Source of the DNA: an uncultured Pseudomonadota bacterium
Lineage (GTDB): Bacteria; Pseudomonadota; Alphaproteobacteria; Rs-D84
Reading direction: 5' to 3'
NCBI GenBank assembly: GCA_902787305.1
Contig: CADAFS010000008.1
Span: forward strand, 1 to 46,850
Length of the DNA stretch: 46,850 bases
In this document: positions 2,289 to 9,913 of the stretch, in pieces
How the letters are laid out: every line of letters starts with the position of its first letter
Numbering within the stretch: position 1 is the stretch's first letter
Translations under genes and position numbers: made by a program
The notes under the pieces: generated by a model
The model's input: the letters and a program-made list of their open reading frames with translations, nothing else
What the model was told of the DNA's origin: nothing
Databases searched by the model: none

Positions 2289-3533
2289 ATGAAACATTTC
2301 TTTCGTATGACAGGCGTTGTGTGTGCATGCATGATTGGTGCGGGCGCGTATGGCATTTCGGCGGGAACAACCGCGACAAATATGGCGCGTGGCGTGAATA
2401 TGGGCACGGTTGGCAACACAAACCTGCGCGGGAACCAAGGTTTGGCGAATGCATATAAAACCAATCAGCGCAATACTTACTATATGGTAAATGTGCCAGA
2501 TGTCGATAGTGCGTGTCGTATAAAGATTGATAAATGCCTGTCCGATTATTGTGGCGATATTACCGTTGTCCCAGGCCAGGTATCGGGCCGCTGTGCATAC
2601 GCAACAGAAAGCGAATTGTATAATTATGTTCTGCTTTGCCTGCGTAATGACGTGTCGGTGTTATTGCCGAACTATGCGACGAATACGAAAATGGGTGTTG
2701 GTGGTGTAAATACCGCGGCGCACCTTTGCCCGTCATATGTACAACAAGAATTAATGGCGTGGCTGGCCATGTCAAACATGGCGAACGAATTGACCAAGGC
2801 GCATTCACCACAGTGCCTGCAGCGGCGCCAGGAATTAGAGGCCGCAATGTCTTGCCATGCGGTCGCATTGGCGTATGGAAACGAAACATCAAGTATGCTT
2901 ATGTCGCAACTTAGTGATTTTTGCGGTGCGGGCGTGCCGGGTGGATCGGCCGAAATGGTGTCACGATTCGCAAATGCCGGCAACATTGGTGCAAACATTT
3001 GGGGATGGGCGGAAAAAATTGTAACGCTTGATTTGAATAAAAAGGCTTCCGATTGGGAAAACGCGGTTGATGCGGTTTTGGCGTCCTATACAAATCGTAT
3101 GAATTTGGCGTGCGGTGAAAATATGCAACTGAATTTGGCGGCGCATGAAACCGGAAATTCAAATGCGGCACTGCAAACCGCGGCGGCGATTGCGGCGGGC
3201 GTTGCATTTCCCGATGCACAAAAAAAAACTAATGCAATAGATAAAAACGCCGGCAAATACGGAATTTTTTTCGAAGTTAAATCTAATACCGAAGTTTATG
3301 ATTATGCGACCGCAAATCAGGTTATTCAGGCGGGGCTTTCAAATTCGCCCCTTACCCAAAATGCGTTTTTAACATCGGCGCAAATGGATAACATGCAAAA
3401 TGCGTATAAGTACGGAACCAAGGTTTTTATCCTGCGCGATAGCACGCGTTGCTTTATGGTGCCGGTTGCCGACACAACCAGTGCCGAACGTTCGATGGTC
3501 GCGCAACAATTTGCAAATTGCATTTATAAGTAG
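2289..3533 (+). CDS. Secreted Cys-rich protein of unknown function
   Basis: 414 residues; I do not recognise a named family. It begins with a signal-like segment (charged start, hydrophobic residues about 7-22). Cysteines at about 76, 83, 88 and 102 form a C-x6-C-x4-C-x13-C module ending in GRC. A matching module occurs near residues 292-314 of the 1458-residue protein at 19182, so the two share a domain. The middle is Ala/Met/Asn-rich and looks helical. Cysteine pairs plus an export signal suggest disulphides in the periplasm or at the surface (inference). It has its own promoter and a strong GGGGGGAGAG ribosome site. A bidirectional terminator follows. Confidence 0.8.
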   Translation: MKHFFRMTGVVCACMIGAGAYGISAGTTATNMARGVNMGTVGNTNLRGNQGLANAYKTNQRNTYYMVNVPDVDSACRIKIDKCLSDYCGDITVVPGQVSGRCAYATESELYNYVLLCLRNDVSVLLPNYATNTKMGVGGVNTAAHLCPSYVQQELMAWLAMSNMANELTKAHSPQCLQRRQELEAAMSCHAVALAYGNETSSMLMSQLSDFCGAGVPGGSAEMVSRFANAGNIGANIWGWAEKIVTLDLNKKASDWENAVDAVLASYTNRMNLACGENMQLNLAAHETGNSNAALQTAAAIAAGVAFPDAQKKTNAIDKNAGKYGIFFEVKSNTEVYDYATANQVIQAGLSNSPLTQNAFLTSAQMDNMQNAYKYGTKVFILRDSTRCFMVPVADTTSAERSMVAQQFANCIYK

Positions 3534-3557: not shown

Positions 3558-3590
3558 AAATCCCCGCGACTGCGGGGATTTCTTTTATTT
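3558..3590. terminator. Bidirectional rho-independent terminator
   Basis: Ten-base-pair stem AAATCCCCGC/GCGGGGATTT with a GACT loop (3558-3581). T-rich tracts follow on both strands; the minus-strand T-run is stronger. It serves the convergent 2289 gene and the cold-shock gene. Confidence 0.85.
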
Positions 3591-3917
3591 CTTCCAGAAA
3601 GCAAATCCGGAATGTTTTTCTTCTTTTTTGCTTTCTTCGCGGGCGCGGCGTCTTTCGGCACGCCGTTCCTGAAATCGCTTTGCAGATTCTTCGTCGCGTT
3701 GAACAAGTTTTAATGTTGTGACCGACAATTTGCCATTACGAACTTCTTCATCAAATTCAACGATATCGCCTTCGTTCAAATATCGCAAATCCGCATTTTT
3801 AAGTGAACTTGAATGAACAAATACATCATCCGTGTTGCCGTCCGCATTCGGTGTATCCGGCGCAATAAAGCCATAACACTTTTTGCCGTTGTACCATTTT
3901 ACTTTACCTTGGCGCAT
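3585..3917 (-). CDS. Cold-shock domain protein with basic C-terminal tail
   Basis: 110 residues. The N-terminal 70 residues are a cold-shock (OB-fold) domain: 'GKVKWYN' strand, RNP1-like 'KCYGFI' and RNP2-like 'DVFVHSS'. Such proteins bind single-stranded RNA/DNA and melt RNA structure. The last 35 residues (after 'LVQRDEES') are very rich in Arg, Lys and Glu, unlike the 67-70-residue classical CspA, and probably add non-specific RNA affinity. A good Shine-Dalgarno (AAAGGA) precedes ATG 3917. The 124-nt gap upstream could hold a structured leader, but I see no clear conserved element there. Confidence 0.92.
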   Translation of the reverse strand: MRQGKVKWYNGKKCYGFIAPDTPNADGNTDDVFVHSSSLKNADLRYLNEGDIVEFDEEVRNGKLSVTTLKLVQRDEESAKRFQERRAERRRAREESKKEEKHSGFAFWKK

Positions 3918-4041: not shown

Positions 4042-5460
4042 TTACATATTGCGTTCGGAATTATAATATCGCGAAACTTCATTCATAATAAAATTGAATA
4101 ACCGCACCGCAAGTGTATCACCATCAACCCCGCATCCGGCACGCGTATACGGCATTGCCGACACCAAAACAAATCGTGCCATAAAACGGAAAATTGCAAT
4201 CTCTTGGGTTTTATCCAACTTTGATGAAGAATTTGTCACAACAAAAATTTCATTTTTCACCGCGGCATCCAATTTGTTCATAATTTTTTCAACAATCGAA
4301 CTTGGGTAATAAAGTTTGCATTCGCGCGGGAACCCTTCAAACAATGATACATCGTTACCACGGCTGTATAAAATATTCCAACCGACGCGTTCAAGTAAAT
4401 CGTCCAAACACCGACATATCATTTTATTATATTGTTCGATTCCGCTTTCCATCATTTCGGCGGCCTCACTTTCGATGGCGGCATTTTCCATATCTGGATT
4501 TTCGCGCAATGTGGCATAGTAATCATGTGTGCGTCGTTCAAATTCAAAGAATGTCCGAACCTGACATATAATTTCCATCGGAATAACATTATCCGCCGTG
4601 CCGATATTCACAATAACCTTGGAATCGCGATAGTTGCGCGGGTTTGTAATATCATAAAACTTGTCACGCATCGATATAATTCGTTCCGGCATCATATCGC
4701 GCAGTCGTTCGATAAAAGTTCGCGCCTGGGGTATTAAATCGAACAAGCACTTTACGCGCCACACATCGTTCAAATGCAAGTATGGTTTTTTAACCTTGTC
4801 TAATTCGCGAACAAGTTTTACAACCAAACTATCCTCGCTTTGTCCGATGATGGATAAAACTTCTTCGGCGGCGTTGGTCACATAATGTGCGGCAAAATTT
4901 TTTCGAATTTGTTGTTCGATTTTTTTAATCTGTTTATCGCGCCCCATTTCCACGAACACACGCGTGACCGCCGAAATAACATCATTGATAAAGAACTGAT
5001 AGTATTTCCCGGTCACCTTGTCAATCGCGCGTTCAACATTTTTCTGCGCGGCAACAATTACCGTCACAATCGATGACACCGACAAATCAATCTTGTGTGA
5101 GGCGCAGCACGTAAAGAACTGATTCCGCATCGGGTCCGCATCTAATCTATGATTGACTAAATAACAACAGAGCGGATTTATATCTGCAATCTTTATTGGT
5201 TTGTCCACCGACAAATCTGTCGCCGGGTCATATTCGGTCACGGCGGTTTTTGGTGCACCAAAGCATTTGCCTAAAACATGGAATACATCGCGATAGCAAT
5301 CCATACCGTCAGAATAAAGCCGGCGTAAATACTGCGCTGTTTCATCGTCTATGCGTCCCGCATCGCGCGCATTATCAATAAACGCGATGTTGTGCCGATC
5401 GCGGTCGGCGGTAAGAATATCAACATCTAATGCGGTCGTTTTTACCATGCGCGCGTCCAT
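4042..5460 (-). CDS. Unknown protein with a degenerate RelA/SpoT-like region
   Basis: 472 residues, third gene of the lysK-lysS operon; its ATG overlaps the lysS stop (TAATG), so translation is probably coupled. Residues about 215-320 resemble the RelA/SpoT (p)ppGpp synthetase fold: 'LNDVWRVKCLF' (compare D-x-x-x-x-R of the family), 'NPRNYRD' (compare NGYRSLH) and 'CQVRTFFEFERRTHDYY' (compare E-x-Q-x-R-T...H..Y). The usual His after YRSL is Lys, and the catalytic Glu two positions before Gln is Ile, unless Glu296 substitutes. So alarmone synthesis is doubtful. No HD hydrolase or TGS domain is evident. The remainder is mostly helical with no signal peptide; the protein is likely cytosolic. The similarity is by eye only. 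Confidence 0.6.
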   Translation of the reverse strand: MDARMVKTTALDVDILTADRDRHNIAFIDNARDAGRIDDETAQYLRRLYSDGMDCYRDVFHVLGKCFGAPKTAVTEYDPATDLSVDKPIKIADINPLCCYLVNHRLDADPMRNQFFTCCASHKIDLSVSSIVTVIVAAQKNVERAIDKVTGKYYQFFINDVISAVTRVFVEMGRDKQIKKIEQQIRKNFAAHYVTNAAEEVLSIIGQSEDSLVVKLVRELDKVKKPYLHLNDVWRVKCLFDLIPQARTFIERLRDMMPERIISMRDKFYDITNPRNYRDSKVIVNIGTADNVIPMEIICQVRTFFEFERRTHDYYATLRENPDMENAAIESEAAEMMESGIEQYNKMICRCLDDLLERVGWNILYSRGNDVSLFEGFPRECKLYYPSSIVEKIMNKLDAAVKNEIFVVTNSSSKLDKTQEIAIFRFMARFVLVSAMPYTRAGCGVDGDTLAVRLFNFIMNEVSRYYNSERNM

Positions 5461-6926
5461 TACTTCATTATCGGGAACAAAATAACATCGCGTGCGGTCG
5501 GTTGGTCAAACACAATCATGGCCAATCTGTCGATGCCCATACCCACACCGGAAATTGGCGGAAATCCGTGTTCCATCGCGCGCACAAAGTCGTTGTCGGG
5601 GTTAAATGCTTCTTCTTCGCCACCTTCGATACTTTTCGCCTGTTCCTCAAAGGCCTTGGCCTGTTGTATTGGATTCACCAATTCGGAATAGCCCTTGCAC
5701 AGTTCGCCGCCCGCCACCAATAATTGATACATATCAAGGCGCCGGTCATCATCGTTGTTATGCCGCGCAAGTGGCACCATATAAGTTGGATAGTTATAAA
5801 GGAACGTCGGTTGAACAATACTGCCACGGATTTTCCGCTTGTACACATAGTCAACCAATGTCGCAAGTGATTTCAAATCTTCCAATTCGGACATCGGGAA
5901 CATACCCATATCAACCAATTTTTGACGCAACACATCAACATCTTCAAAGTCCAAAATGTTGCACCCGAACAGTTCGTTCATCTTTGCGGTGTAATCCATC
6001 ATATCATACTTGCTAAAATCAAGTTTGGTTCCTTGGAATTCAATCTGTAATGTTCCGCGTGCGCGCATTATCAATTCTTGAACCATTTGCCATGTGAAAT
6101 CAATGTTGCGCTTGTAATCCCAATATGCCGCATACCATTCAATCATGGTGAATTCTTGCAAGTGCATCGCATCCATACCTTCGTTGCGGAAATCCTTGGC
6201 CACTTCGTACACACGGTCAAACCCCGCGCCAATCGCCATCTTTAGGAAAAGTTCCGGTGAAATACGCAATTGGAAATCCGTGTTTAACGCGTTGTGGTGT
6301 GTGACGAACGGCCGTGCCGCCGCACCCGATGCGATATTTTGCATAATCGGTGTTTCAATTTCCAAGAATCCGTGATTATTCATAAATTCGCGCAAATGTT
6401 GTGTCATTTTGAATCGCCCAAGCAACGCGTTGCGCGATTCCGGATTTGAAACAATATCCAAATAGCGTTGACGATATCGCGTTTCCATATCGGTAAGCCC
6501 ATGGAACTTTTCCGGCAACGGCCGTAACGCCTTGGCAAGTATTTCGTAATTTGCAACGCGCACGGTCAATTCGCCGGCGGTTGTGTGATATAATTTTCCG
6601 GTGATTCCAATAAAGTCGCCCAAATCAACATTGGCCTTCATGAATTTATAGTTTTCTTCGCCCAATTCTTCGCGCGACATAGAAAATTGAATTTCGCCAT
6701 TTATATCATAAATGCGCCCGAACATCAGTTTTCCCATCCAACGCAACGCCGTGACGCGACCACAAAGCCGAACATCCGTATCGTCGGGTAATTCACGCGC
6801 ATCGGCAATTGTGTGCGTGCGATCAAATTTATCCTTCCACACAACACCATCGCGTGCGCGAATGTTTTCTGCCTTTTGCAGGCGTGCGGTAAGTTCATTT
6901 GTAGACATCGTTTCATTTTCTGACAT
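5460..6926 (-). CDS. lysS: Lysyl-tRNA synthetase, class II
   Basis: 488 residues, full length for the class II enzyme that charges tRNA-Lys. The N-terminal OB-fold anticodon domain (about residues 45-150) has 'VRLCGRVTALRWMGKL'. The catalytic core has 'METRYRQRYLD' (motif 1 region), 'FRNEGMDAMHLQEFTMIEW' (motif 2) and 'GVGMGIDRLAMIV' (motif 3). Intact motifs argue for an active synthetase, not an EpmA/PoxA paralogue, which lacks the OB domain. It begins 1 nt after the lysK stop (TAAAATG), with the lysK end providing the weak ribosome site. A class I enzyme of the same specificity lies immediately upstream, which is highly unusual. Confidence 0.96.
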   Translation of the reverse strand: MSENETMSTNELTARLQKAENIRARDGVVWKDKFDRTHTIADARELPDDTDVRLCGRVTALRWMGKLMFGRIYDINGEIQFSMSREELGEENYKFMKANVDLGDFIGITGKLYHTTAGELTVRVANYEILAKALRPLPEKFHGLTDMETRYRQRYLDIVSNPESRNALLGRFKMTQHLREFMNNHGFLEIETPIMQNIASGAAARPFVTHHNALNTDFQLRISPELFLKMAIGAGFDRVYEVAKDFRNEGMDAMHLQEFTMIEWYAAYWDYKRNIDFTWQMVQELIMRARGTLQIEFQGTKLDFSKYDMMDYTAKMNELFGCNILDFEDVDVLRQKLVDMGMFPMSELEDLKSLATLVDYVYKRKIRGSIVQPTFLYNYPTYMVPLARHNNDDDRRLDMYQLLVAGGELCKGYSELVNPIQQAKAFEEQAKSIEGGEEEAFNPDNDFVRAMEHGFPPISGVGMGIDRLAMIVFDQPTARDVILFPIMK

Positions 6927-6927
6927 T

Positions 6928-8496
6928 TTATAGTACCCTTTTTATCATATCTATTGTTTTCTCTATACCGTAAATCATTATAAAATTTGGCAACCTTGGA
7001 CCACTTTCTTGTCCCAACAAAACATTATAGAACATTGTAAAGAAGTCGCGCAGTTTATCCACTGAATAATACTTTTTCCCAATATCATAACAATAGGTTT
7101 CTAATTCTTTTTCTATACCCGTTTTACCGACGAATTGCGCAAGTCCATTCATCAAATCCTGCAAAACAATCTTTTCTTGGTCGGTCGCATCACGATATTT
7201 CTTGTTTGGTTTAACAAAATCGTGATAATAATGAACCGCAGATTCCGCCATTTTGTTCAAATCAGGGCAATTCTGCGGATTTAATTCTGGGTTATACGCG
7301 GTTATGTATCCCCACATATCAGATATGCGTTCCGTGTTCGCGGCACTTGCTAAATTCAATAGCAGATTATACGATATTGGCATACGACCGGTCGGGACAC
7401 CATGTTCACGGTGAATATAAACCACCGGGTTGGTTAGTTTGGCGGTATCATCTTGTTTATCATAATTATTTAGGTGTTGATAGTATTCATCAACATTACG
7501 CGGGATAACATCAAAGTACAATTTTTTACTTGTTGTTGGTTTGTTATACATAAACAATGCCAAACTTTCTGGATTTCCGTATTTTAACCATTGTTCAATA
7601 CTAATACCATTGCCTTTTGTTTTAGATATTTTTTGTCCTTGTTCATCAACAAACAGTTGATAAGTTAAATTTTCTGGGGCGCGCCCACCAAGAATACGAA
7701 TAATATCCCCTGATAATTTATAGGAATCTGTTAAATCAGCACCGCACATTTCATAATCCACATCTAATGCCAACCAGCGCATCGCCCAATCTGCCTTCCA
7801 TTGTAATTTTGCCATGCCATTTAGCACAGACTGTTCAACGCGCGTGCCGTCGTCGTCTTCGAAAACAACAATTCCTTTTTCAGCATTGATTTCTAACATT
7901 GGAACTTGCAACACTTTACCTGTTTTTGGTGAAATCGGCATAATCGGACTGTATGTTTTTTGCCTTTCTTCGCGTAGTGTCGGCAACATAACCTTCATAA
8001 TTCTATCGTAATTCGCCAAAATTTTCATCAATGCTTCATTAAAAGCCCCAGATTTATACATTTCTGTGGAACTCATGAAATCATATTCAAATCCATAACT
8101 ATCCAAAAATTCACGCAACATTGCATTATTATGATCTGCAAAACTTTTATACTTACCAAAAGGATCAGGGACAGATGTCAACGGTAATCCTATATATTTT
8201 GCGGTTTCTTCTTGGTTTGGGATATTTGTCGGTACTTTACGTAATCCATCCATATCGTCAGAAAAGGCAATCAAACGTGTCGGAATATCAGAAATTTTGG
8301 TAAAGGCCCATCGAACCATACTGGTGCGGGCAACCTCGCCAAAAGTGCCAATGTGCGGCAACCCCGAAGGGCCATAACCTGTTTCAAACAAAACATAACC
8401 TTTGGCCGGGGTTTTGTTTCCGATATGTGCCAATATCTTGCGGGCTTCTTGGAATGGCCATGTGTTTATTTGACTATAATCTATATTTCCCGACAT
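6928..8496 (-). CDS. lysK: Lysyl-tRNA synthetase, class I
   Basis: 522 residues. This is the Rossmann-fold (class I) LysRS found in archaea, spirochaetes and most alphaproteobacteria. The HIGH-type signature is 'GLPHIGTFGE' (HIGT at residues 48-51) and the KMSKS-type is 'KISKTKGN' (289-296). The C-terminal part is the helical anticodon-binding cage. I chose ATG 8496 because AAAAGGGAAA lies 5-8 nt before it; the in-frame GTG at 8529 would lie within the T-run of the leader hairpin. The codon use is visibly more AT-rich than lysS. It leads the lysK-lysS-unknown operon and has an extended -10 promoter and a terminator-like hairpin in its leader. Confidence 0.95.
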   Translation of the reverse strand: MSGNIDYSQINTWPFQEARKILAHIGNKTPAKGYVLFETGYGPSGLPHIGTFGEVARTSMVRWAFTKISDIPTRLIAFSDDMDGLRKVPTNIPNQEETAKYIGLPLTSVPDPFGKYKSFADHNNAMLREFLDSYGFEYDFMSSTEMYKSGAFNEALMKILANYDRIMKVMLPTLREERQKTYSPIMPISPKTGKVLQVPMLEINAEKGIVVFEDDDGTRVEQSVLNGMAKLQWKADWAMRWLALDVDYEMCGADLTDSYKLSGDIIRILGGRAPENLTYQLFVDEQGQKISKTKGNGISIEQWLKYGNPESLALFMYNKPTTSKKLYFDVIPRNVDEYYQHLNNYDKQDDTAKLTNPVVYIHREHGVPTGRMPISYNLLLNLASAANTERISDMWGYITAYNPELNPQNCPDLNKMAESAVHYYHDFVKPNKKYRDATDQEKIVLQDLMNGLAQFVGKTGIEKELETYCYDIGKKYYSVDKLRDFFTMFYNVLLGQESGPRLPNFIMIYGIEKTIDMIKRVL

Positions 8497-8514
8497 AATG
8501 TTTCCCTTTTGGTT

Positions 8515-8546
8515 AAAAAAACGGGGCACCGTAAAAGTGCGCCCGT
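8515..8546 (-). promoter_or_regulatory. Terminator-like hairpin in the lysK leader (possible attenuator)
   Basis: Minus-strand ACGGGCGCAC...GTGCCCCGT forms a 9-bp stem with one bulged C and a 7-nt loop, followed directly by seven T. It lies between the lysK -10 box (8573-8568) and the lysK ribosome site. No minus-strand gene lies upstream that it could terminate, so it may control read-through into the operon. Confidence 0.6.
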
Positions 8547-8567
8547 AAATTACTTTATGGTCGCACC

Positions 8568-8576
8568 ATTATAACA
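8568..8576 (-). promoter_or_regulatory. Putative extended -10 promoter for lysK-lysS operon
   Basis: Minus-strand TGTTATAAT is a perfect extended -10 element. No good -35 is visible. Predicted start is near 8561, giving a leader of about 65 nt. Confidence 0.55.
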
Positions 8577-8693
8577 AAAATTTTTTGCAAATCGTACGCA
8601 TATCGGTCACCATTATGCATAAGTTTTTTCCAAATGTAAAGCTTTTTGTGTGGTATGACAAGAAGGAATGGTTAAATATGTTCGTAACAGTAT

Positions 8694-8880
8694 GATTTAA
8701 CTATGAAAACAAGTATGTAAACAGAATATACGAATTTTGACTTGCCAAGCCAGGAGAAGTAGATAAGATAGTATCAGAAACAAACAATAGACTTATGAAA
8801 ATACTTGGTTGATTAACCACAAAACAGGTATTTTTTAACGATTCGATGTTGCACTTCTAACCTTAATCTGTACGAATAGT
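8694..8880 (+). pseudogene. IS30-family transposase remnant (C-terminal end)
   Basis: A chain of frames separated by shifts and stops matches the IS30 transposase C-terminus. 'FDLPSQEK' occurs in one frame; 'DKIVSETNNRLMKILG' then a stop and 'LTTKQVFFND' in the next; 'DVALLT' in a third. Compare the family pattern INNRPRK-LG-KTP-E-VFF...VALQT. The 5' part of the gene and clear terminal repeats are missing. The rest of the gap between lysK and the rpsB promoter (8577-8897) is AT-rich with nothing else recognisable. Confidence 0.65.
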
Positions 8881-8897
8881 TGATTATTAAAAAATAC

Positions 8898-8926
8898 TTG
8901 CTTTTTTGAATTTTTTGTCATATTAT
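8898..8926 (+). promoter_or_regulatory. Putative rpsB-tsf promoter
   Basis: TTGCTT (8898-8903) and TATTAT (8921-8926) have a 17-nt spacer. The predicted start near 8933 gives a leader of about 110 nt. This leader carries the palindrome GGCACGTGCC (8929-8938 region) and could hold an S2-responsive element as in other bacteria, but I cannot define one. Confidence 0.6.
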
Positions 8927-9043
8927 GGGGGCACGTGCCGTTTGGCGCGAAGAACACAGCCGTTGCGTGGGGTTTCTGTCTGGGATTTCCGGTTTGTATT
9001 TCCCACCATGGCGAGGAATTAACAGAAACAAAAAGGATAAATC

Positions 9044-9913
9044 ATGGCATTGCCAAAATTTTCTATGCAACAATTGATGGAGGCCGGCGTTCATTTCGGA
9101 CACCACACCCGTCGTTGGAATCCACTTATGACGCCGTATGTTTATGGGGTCAAAGATAAAATTCATATTATCAATTTGAATAAAACCGCACCACTGTTGC
9201 ACCGCGCACTGGTCGCACTGGAGGCGATTACCGCCGCCGGTGGCAAGGTTTTGTTTGTTGCAACCAAGCACCAGGCCAAAGATATTGTCAAAGATGCGGC
9301 GGAACGCACCGGGCAATTTTATGTGAATAATCGTTGGTTGGGCGGTATGCTTACCAATTGGACAACCGTGTCGCAATCGATTCGCCGCTTGAAAAAGATG
9401 GAATCGGATATTGAAAATGCCGAAAAATTGGGCCTTACCAAGAAAGAAGTCGGCGTTATGACCAAAGAAGTCGCAAAATTGCGCGATGTATTTGGTGGTA
9501 TTTTGGATATGCACGGTATCCCGCAGGTTATGATTGTTATTGATGTGCCACGTGAAATGAACGCGGTACGCGAAGCGAAAAATTTGGATATTCCGACAAT
9601 TGCAATCTGTGATACGAACGCGAATCCTGAAATGGTTGACTATCCGGTGCCGGGAAATGACGATGCGTCACGCGCGATTCAACTTTATTGCGATTTGTGT
9701 GTTGATGCGATTTTGTCCGGTATTGAAAAGCGTCTTGGTGGCGCGGCCGGCAAAAAGGTAGAGGCATCTATGGCCGATGATGCGAACGATGCGTTGGAAG
9801 ATGAAATGAAAGACAAAGAAATGAAACAAAAGTCCAAGGTTTCCGAAGCACGCGAAGTTCGCCGCAGTAAATTGGCCGATAAAGCGGAAAAGGCAGAAAA
9901 AGCCGATAAGTAA
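9044..9913 (+). CDS. rpsB: 30S ribosomal protein S2
   Basis: 289 residues. It joins the head and body of the small subunit and binds S1. The family start is plain ('LMEAGVHFGHHTRRWNP'), as are 'NRWLGGMLTNW' and 'PTIAICDTNANP'. The last 55 or so residues form a Lys/Glu/Asp-rich extension beyond the usual S2 core of about 240 residues, as seen in several alphaproteobacteria. Start chosen at ATG 9044 after AAAAGGATAAATC. First gene of the standard rpsB-tsf operon; a hairpin separates it from tsf. Confidence 0.98.
   Translation: MALPKFSMQQLMEAGVHFGHHTRRWNPLMTPYVYGVKDKIHIINLNKTAPLLHRALVALEAITAAGGKVLFVATKHQAKDIVKDAAERTGQFYVNNRWLGGMLTNWTTVSQSIRRLKKMESDIENAEKLGLTKKEVGVMTKEVAKLRDVFGGILDMHGIPQVMIVIDVPREMNAVREAKNLDIPTIAICDTNANPEMVDYPVPGNDDASRAIQLYCDLCVDAILSGIEKRLGGAAGKKVEASMADDANDALEDEMKDKEMKQKSKVSEAREVRRSKLADKAEKAEKADK

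Follow-up and report, generated by a model that had tools for sequence, protein, structure and literature searches.

Based on a comparison of closely related genomes, we propose that the two classes of lysyl-tRNA synthetase (LysRS) have replaced one another repeatedly, in place, at a single operon of Candidatus Enterousia, beneath a common leader that would act as an attenuator sensing lysyl-tRNA (Lys-tRNA). We regard it as probable that the DNA analysed here captures the two-enzyme stage of this exchange. The stretch, referred to as the window, comprises 46,850 nucleotides (nt) and is contig C8 of its source genome, G000 (GenBank assembly GCA_902787305.1). LysRS is a synthetase with two unrelated classes (PMC1475646). 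In the window, lysK, which encodes a class I enzyme of 522 amino acids (aa; 6928-8496), lysS, which encodes a class II enzyme of 488 aa (5460-6926), and g3, which encodes a 472-aa protein with a predicted RelA/SpoT-type nucleotidyltransferase fold (4042-5460), are consecutive genes. All three lie on the minus strand, as does every feature of the array described below, and the two synthetases were identified from their open reading frames (ORFs) and family searches. The sole base between lysK and lysS is 6927, and g3 starts on the final base of the stop codon of lysS (TAATG). A preliminary description of the window, made from its sequence alone, had reported an intact lysK-lysS pair 1 nt apart with a coupled third gene; the coordinates, the family scores and the TAATG overlap confirm it. 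The pair stands, and one of the explanations offered for it is the best supported; that description overlooked the putative attenuator in the leader and left the third gene without an identity.

Locus states and lineage history in the genus

Candidatus Enterousia are gut bacteria with reduced genomes, placed in the order Rs-D84 (PMC12306168); below, G numbers denote genomes of the genus and L numbers loci. Across 156 genus genomes lysS was found in 138 (E 1e-100) and lysK in 16. Nine genomes carry lysK alone, seven carry both classes and nine have neither at these thresholds, several of the last being incomplete and one, G007, retaining a piece of lysS. lysK and lysS are adjacent in two of the 156, G000 and G165; the latter repeats the order lysK-lysS-g3 (L116; L247), so the arrangement is not confined to one assembly. 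When named genomes were scanned with a g3 profile, the best 80 of 157 loci comprised 75 lysS-g3, three lysK-g3, one lysK-lysS-g3 (G165) and one lone g3 (G105). The adjacent pair is real and rare within the genus. The preliminary description had named two grounds on which its interest would fall, a short or inactivated paralogue and a pair common in the lineage; both genes are of full length with no sign of inactivation, and the pair occurs in the two genomes just given.

Relatives display the states on either side of the window. G073 (L356) presents a site without lysK: the window leader, 8647-8485, aligns to it at 95.8%, and the alignment continues straight from the leader into lysS-g3 (6926-5049, 96.6%). 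In G131 (L239) lysS also sits behind a leader nearly identical to that of the window. In G103, G123, G126, G013, G169 and G095 lysK is followed by g3 with no lysS between them. Between lysK and g3, G095 retains a piece of the lysS 3' end, in which 17 of 18 nt are as in G131, and in comparisons with five lysS ends none of 2000 shuffles was equally good against each. A comparable scar in G103 was dropped, its best case being equalled by 64 of 2000 shuffles. The locus states thus observed appear to form a series, from leader-lysS-g3 (G073) through leader-lysK-lysS-g3 (the window) to leader-lysK-g3 (G103 and others). Three options had been put forward in the preliminary description, and that of one enzyme being replaced is the best supported, by the lysK-free site of G073, by the relatives with lysK in the place of lysS and by the scar in G095.

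lysK also occurs away from this site. In G105 lysK and its leader sit between prfB and the gene that adjoins prfB in the window (2289-3533), with g3 elsewhere. G109, G064, G065, G019 and G167 have lysK elsewhere and retain lysS-g3, G064 having a second lysK copy in addition; g3 is split in two pieces in G167, and G019 has a second, shorter copy of it. G121 and G102 have lysK elsewhere, and lysS was not found in them. Contig C6 of G065, with lysK at both ends, a 26-nt overlap and a circular look, was considered as a plasmid and rejected, as its other genes are by eye of chromosomal housekeeping types. Two further features of these loci were seen. At G019:C4 (L122), a 2387-aa ORF beside lysS has a g3-like ORF on either side (464 and 249 aa), perhaps a duplication around an insertion. 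Resolvase-like ORFs (cluster c11, recognised by eye) lie beside lysK in G013 (L108 8204) and near lysS in G015 and G028, and might have a part in local rearrangement.

lysK and lysS open with 12-nt stretches (8485-8496 and 6926-6915) that are imperfect direct repeats of each other, and the corresponding 12 nt of G073 (L356 6577-6588) fall within the alignments to both the lysK and the lysS starts. A bolder version of the model, which we put forward tentatively and think rather less likely to be right than wrong, is that exchange between the two classes runs in both directions at a single regulated operon position, precise gain or excision of lysK being aided by this repeat. If so, synthetase class would be a mobile, reversible trait among closely related species.

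The history of lysK in the genus is consistent with movement. A LysK match (E 0.001) was obtained in 310 of 385 alphaproteobacterial genomes sampled, a few of the matches being weak, and the LysK proteins of the genus form a single clade on a long stem; the gene may have been kept from an ancestor or re-acquired. As a separate observation, family f4 of the order (e.g. L041-L050) has a highly divergent class I LysRS, at 26-31% identity, in 10 of the 11 relatives, and many of its genomes encode a shorter homologue of class II LysRS, possibly EpmA. Within the genus, the LysK tree disagrees with those of ParC and g3, used here in place of a species tree, and because of this conflict we take lysK to move within the genus. 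The ParC tree covers 37 of 40 genomes (no ParC from G013, G167 and G023); the LysK tree omits L050, and its careful version retains 6 of 33 alphaproteobacterial rows. Forcing together the LysK of G000, G103, G105, G123, G095 and G165, a group named only after the trees were seen, was rejected by the approximately unbiased (AU) test (p 0.0004). On the g3 tree of the subclade lysK needs four changes and lysS three, and 58 of 500 shuffles of the lysK labels need as few as four. Synonymous divergence (dS) is telling in G095, where that of lysK is 2.69 against 0.67-1.26 for 17 other ORFs; the set includes W_39028, possibly a wrong-frame ORF, of which the ranges are independent. By this measure lysK is clearly foreign in G095. 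The LysS proteins of the genus are of two types, one about 72% identical to the window LysS, and their tree differs from the ParC tree, hinting that lysS has been exchanged within the genus as well.

Is the window a passing stage, or do its two enzymes form a stable dual system? Class I could resist lysine analogues and inhibitors while class II charges faster, an idea put forward for two-class organisms (PMC1475646). Both genes are indeed under purifying selection, judged from their codon changes: the window branch shows 17 synonymous changes and one nonsynonymous in lysS and 59 and seven in lysK, and the ratio of nonsynonymous to synonymous divergence for lysS between G000 and G073 is 0.012. 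However, genomes with both classes are few and those with the pair adjacent fewer, as counted above, and close relatives retain one enzyme or the other. We consider a stable dual system unlikely, though it is the strongest of the alternatives to exchange.

A leader RNA with lysine codons

Upstream of lysS lies a leader element of about 57 nt. Among 74 lysS of named loci, a looser search pattern finds it in 62 and a covariance model of the element, R1, in five more (L272, L296, L298, L307 and L268); a first, tighter pattern had found it at 60 of 71 lysS. Among the other loci, L242, L291 and L262 are cut short and L247 has lysK upstream. At L265 the usual leader is seemingly replaced by another hairpin. 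R1 matches upstream of all eight lysK that are in situ or have moved together with the leader (G000, G103, G105, G123, G126, G013, G169 and G095), four of which are rows of the model and four of which (G105, G126, G013 and G169) are not, and upstream of none of seven unlinked lysK (G121, G102, G109, G167, G064 copy a, G065 and G019). Five of the latter genomes keep lysS, in every case with the leader before it. G165 and one G064 copy fall outside this comparison because of contig ends. One strong R1 match per genome is found in 10 of 12 genus genomes and none in G121 and G102, while other families of the order yield weak matches only, in three of six genomes.

An alignment of 42 copies (A2; 41 of the 65 pattern-found leaders and the window) supports two alternative stems. 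P1 is a 10-pair hairpin in which 93.3% of cells are paired and four pairs are changed on both sides; its covariation score is 0.134 against 0.071 in shuffles, none of 500 scoring as high. The covarying pairs 15-29, 16-28 and 17-27, next to the loop, fall outside the search pattern. The second stem, a terminator followed by U's, is 89.4% paired, with one pair changed on both sides and a covariation score of 0.178 against 0.142. P1 and the terminator share one strand (alignment columns 29-37) and, because both use the same arm, are mutually exclusive.

A short ORF precedes P1, typically MKLNIKKFFN or MRTICKKFLL, the first base of its stop codon mostly lying 5-9 nt before the GTGCG of P1. By a lenient definition the ORF is present in 81 of 81 leaders (73 of them distinct), with KK, KR, RK or RR in 72. 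By a stricter one, applied to 63 distinct upstream regions, 61 have the ORF and 54 the ORF with a Lys motif, whereas 200 dinucleotide shuffles give means of 4.8 (maximum 11) and 0.7 (maximum 4). AAA and AAG account for 155 of 584 codons in the leader frame; the other two frames, of 511 codons each, have 69 and 72. The stop codon, over the 73 distinct leaders, is TAA in 39, TGA in 31 and TAG in three.

The window displays the full anatomy. A promoter-like TTTACA-N17-CATAAT (8612-8640), found before the leader in G073, G103 and G131 too, is followed by the leader-peptide ORF, MRTICKKFLL and a stop, with the tandem Lys codons AAA AAA (8569-8601). The ORF as taken starts 10 nt past the -10 box; an upstream in-frame ATG that overlaps this box was not taken as the start. 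The 5' arm of the antiterminator P1 (GGTGCGACC, 8559-8567) begins 1 nt after the leader-peptide stop, the common segment that serves as P1 3' arm and terminator 5' arm occupies 8537-8546, and the terminator 3' arm with its U-tract 8515-8530. The R1 match spans 8516-8571 at 67.8 bits, the window being itself a row of the model. The leader thus combines a Lys-codon ORF with mutually exclusive antiterminator and terminator hairpins and a U-tract, the features that would be expected of a ribosome-mediated attenuator. A T box was not among the Rfam matches in 8400-9060 up to E 1; the sole match there, to BSnc120 on the opposite strand (31 bits, gathering threshold 114), was taken as a chance match to the inverted repeat.

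How the switch works we infer from this anatomy, which is of the pheST type. The locus would be the lysS operon of the genus, lysS-g3 and often then a cold-shock gene, with a transcription attenuator in which a ribosome reads the Lys codons. An ample supply of Lys-tRNA would let this ribosome reach the leader stop and mask the 5' arm of P1, the terminator would form and transcription would end. When Lys-tRNA is scarce, the ribosome would stall at the Lys codons, P1 would form, the terminator would be blocked and the synthetase would be made. Such a switch would respond to Lys-tRNA whatever enzyme supplies it, so that even an unrelated LysRS inserted downstream would fall under the same feedback; LysRS supply would track Lys-tRNA for either enzyme, and therefore either class could occupy the slot. 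lysK, moving among Enterousia species, would repeatedly have landed where lysS starts, at its start codon and downstream of its leader and ribosome-binding site, and deletion of lysS would often have followed.

Several observations weigh against this model of exchange under a common switch. With regard to the locus, G073 differs from the window upstream of the leader, and its genome is 75% complete with a contig that stops inside g3, so that lysK may lie elsewhere. A clear lysS scar is present at one of the six lysK-g3 junctions, and one junction is only about 9 nt long. The dS of lysK between G000 and G103 is 1.17, the second highest of 11 genes, and lies inside the range of the others (0.56-1.60). 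A recent gain of lysK in the window was not upheld on this measure, as lysK is no outlier against G103; therefore lysK may be vertical there, and its difference between the window and G073 may be a loss in G073 instead of a gain in the window. Moreover, the named records behind the g3-scan loci are almost all metagenome-assembled. With regard to the leader, two of the 74 lysS lack it (L265 and L302) and a third has a weak match (L260). The pair types of P1 are not in excess, 285 of 500 shuffles doing as well, and the two-sided change in the terminator is matched by 259 of 500. Part of the core pairing follows from the search itself, as the pattern used contains the core of each stem. Additionally, the distance from Lys codon to P1 (standard deviation (sd) 1.33) is hardly tighter than that from stop to P1 (sd 1.49), and therefore stalling is not proven. 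Finally, the window leader when folded freely adopts the terminator and not P1.

This last preference would also be expected if the hairpin merely terminated upstream transcription or marked a boundary, with the short ORF arising by chance. A tRNA-Gly(GCC) gene lies directly upstream of the lysS leader region in 6 of 11 loci scanned (L255, L259, L260, L263, L264 and L265), and a strict promoter pattern is met with in just 12 of 65 leaders, both of which suit such an element. Yet a promoter-like element stands right before the leader in the four genomes noted above, the Lys ORF is far above shuffles, P1 covaries, and the leader tracks lysS or in-situ lysK and is missing at unlinked lysK. These facts make a simple terminator or boundary element improbable, and we retain the attenuator as the better account of the leader.

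The synthetases, g3 and the source genome

Both enzymes score above curated family cut-offs. LysK scores 437 bits with PF01921 and 787 with NF001968 (cut-off 648), as a class I LysRS should, and carries HIGH-like and KMSKS-like signatures, HIGT and KISKT, in the genus form KISKTKG; the alphaproteobacterial LysK sampled have mainly HIGT and KISKS (KISKSKG). LysS scores 253 bits with PF00152 and 475 with TIGR00499 (cut-off 427.6), as expected of class II, and also matches the anticodon-binding domain PF01336. All 35 genus LysS compared retain the FRNE Arg of motif 2, the MHLQEFT His and the GYSEL Glu, and 34 retain the motif-3 Arg, residues to which we assign catalytic roles. By these comparisons both synthetases are full length, neither short nor inactivated. 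The intact active-site motifs of the preliminary description hold for the main LysK signatures and the LysS catalytic residues; LysS nevertheless departs from them across the genus. In a segment that we assign to the lysine pocket, all 35 sequences have K where three aligned solved LysRS have N, and the motif-2 Arg before the conserved His is replaced in all 35, by M (31) or T (4). In all 35 compared, a Y stands two residues after the N-to-K position. Such pocket changes are odd for LysS, the sole LysRS found in most of these species. As first described, codon use is more AT-rich in lysK than in lysS: third-position GC is 0.34 and 0.51, respectively, against 0.35-0.55 in 13 other window genes, one of which, at 0.35, nearly equals lysK.

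Could the junction be an artefact of metagenome assembly or of a mixture of strains? lysK-only and lysS-only alleles do occur in close relatives. The source genome, however (904 kb, 91% complete), has a contamination given as 0.14%, the junction, where the lysK stop and the lysS start are both intact, is well away from the ends of a 46.9-kb contig, and G165 has the same order; an artefact is accordingly quite improbable. Least probable of all, and very unlikely, is a LysK-LysS complex acting on an unusual tRNA, for which tRNA-Pyl in Methanosarcina barkeri and tRNA-Other in Bacillus cereus are precedents (PMC2916919, PMC1475646): relatives live with a single enzyme, Rfam gave 38 tRNA matches, and the ARAGORN calls include one tRNA-Lys(CTT) and none recognisable as tRNA-Pyl or tRNA-Other, in an assembly from which several expected tRNAs are absent, so that an odd one may have escaped, and no search for pylS having been made. 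The special or stress tRNA once suggested for one of the enzymes is unsupported on the same grounds. ARAGORN also reported a tRNA-Leu with anticodon AAG (G000:C6:5019-5100, L229) beside Leu tRNAs with CAG, CAA, TAA and TAG. This anticodon is unusual in bacteria.

g3 adjoins lysS or lysK in most loci seen and appears tied to the LysRS operon in the genus: 17 of 18 genomes searched have it, among them every one of the nine with lysK alone, and a search of 24 genomes of other genera gave no match. Sequence searches gave no trustworthy Pfam or PDB match. An AlphaFold2 model from 36 sequences (A3: 35 of 80 g3 loci and the window) has a predicted local distance difference test score (pLDDT) of 77.8 and a predicted template modelling score (pTM) of 0.75. 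Its ten best solved matches in VIA-align, at Z 11.0 to 9.8, are either small alarmone synthetases or proteins annotated as their kin, led by 6fgk (Z 11.0, root mean square deviation 3.3, 177 residues, 14% identity), with CapRel and Rel lower (Z 8.8 and 8.7). Foldseek gave a probability of 1.00 and a best E of 1.1e-3, with no match at E 0.001 or better. The model thus points to a RelA/SpoT-type fold; g3 shares this predicted fold with the small alarmone synthetases and differs from them in having extra regions outside the match. D232, R235, Y277, E296, Q300 and R302 are invariant in an alignment of 20 of 29 relatives' g3 loci and the window (A1), with a spacing that seems to us unlike the canonical alarmone-synthetase motif. 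A cold-shock-domain gene follows in the window (3585-3917), and lies downstream of g3 in many mapped relatives too.

Relation to known systems and implications

The kinds of parts described here are known. Both LysRS classes occur together in Methanosarcina, B. cereus and Treponema pallidum (PMC1475646, PMC2916919), and PMC1475646, which counts five such organisms, proposes a transition stage or a safety net against inhibitors; the words 'adjacent' and 'operon' are absent from the text of that paper. B. cereus has lysK away from lysS (PMC2916919), whereas in the window the pair is adjacent in one operon and several swap states are found at one locus. The B. cereus lysK is preceded by a T box (PMC2916919), likewise a leader RNA sensing tRNA charging before a LysRS gene. 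That T box serves lysK; in the window, where Rfam finds none, sensing probably falls to the leader peptide with its Lys codons, and genes of both classes are found behind the leader. Attenuators of the classical kind precede pheST in gammaproteobacteria and trpS and leuS in Streptomyces (PMC1262725). Their arrangement is the same, and the window differs in its predicted lysine specificity, in belonging to an alphaproteobacterial genus and in the exchange of the synthetase itself. The trpL attenuator of Sinorhizobium meliloti (PMC10117765) is also alphaproteobacterial and has a short leader ORF, which is leaderless; its amino acid and operon are not those of the window. A limited search of open-licence literature turned up no description of a Lys leader peptide upstream of a LysRS gene, the excerpt of PMC1262725 included, nor one of an adjacent lysK-lysS pair, other taxa not having been searched exhaustively. 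What is new is how these parts are combined, together with a putative attenuator for lysine and a series of states found at a single locus.

What does the array mean for the evolution of LysRS? Class replacement of this synthetase has so far been inferred mostly from patchy distributions. Here several states of replacement are found at one locus in close relatives, including a lysK-free site about 96% identical to the window. Our analysis predicts a lysine-responsive attenuator for LysRS, and its Lys-codon leader offers a reason why the exchange may be tolerated: regulation would follow Lys-tRNA, not the enzyme that makes it.

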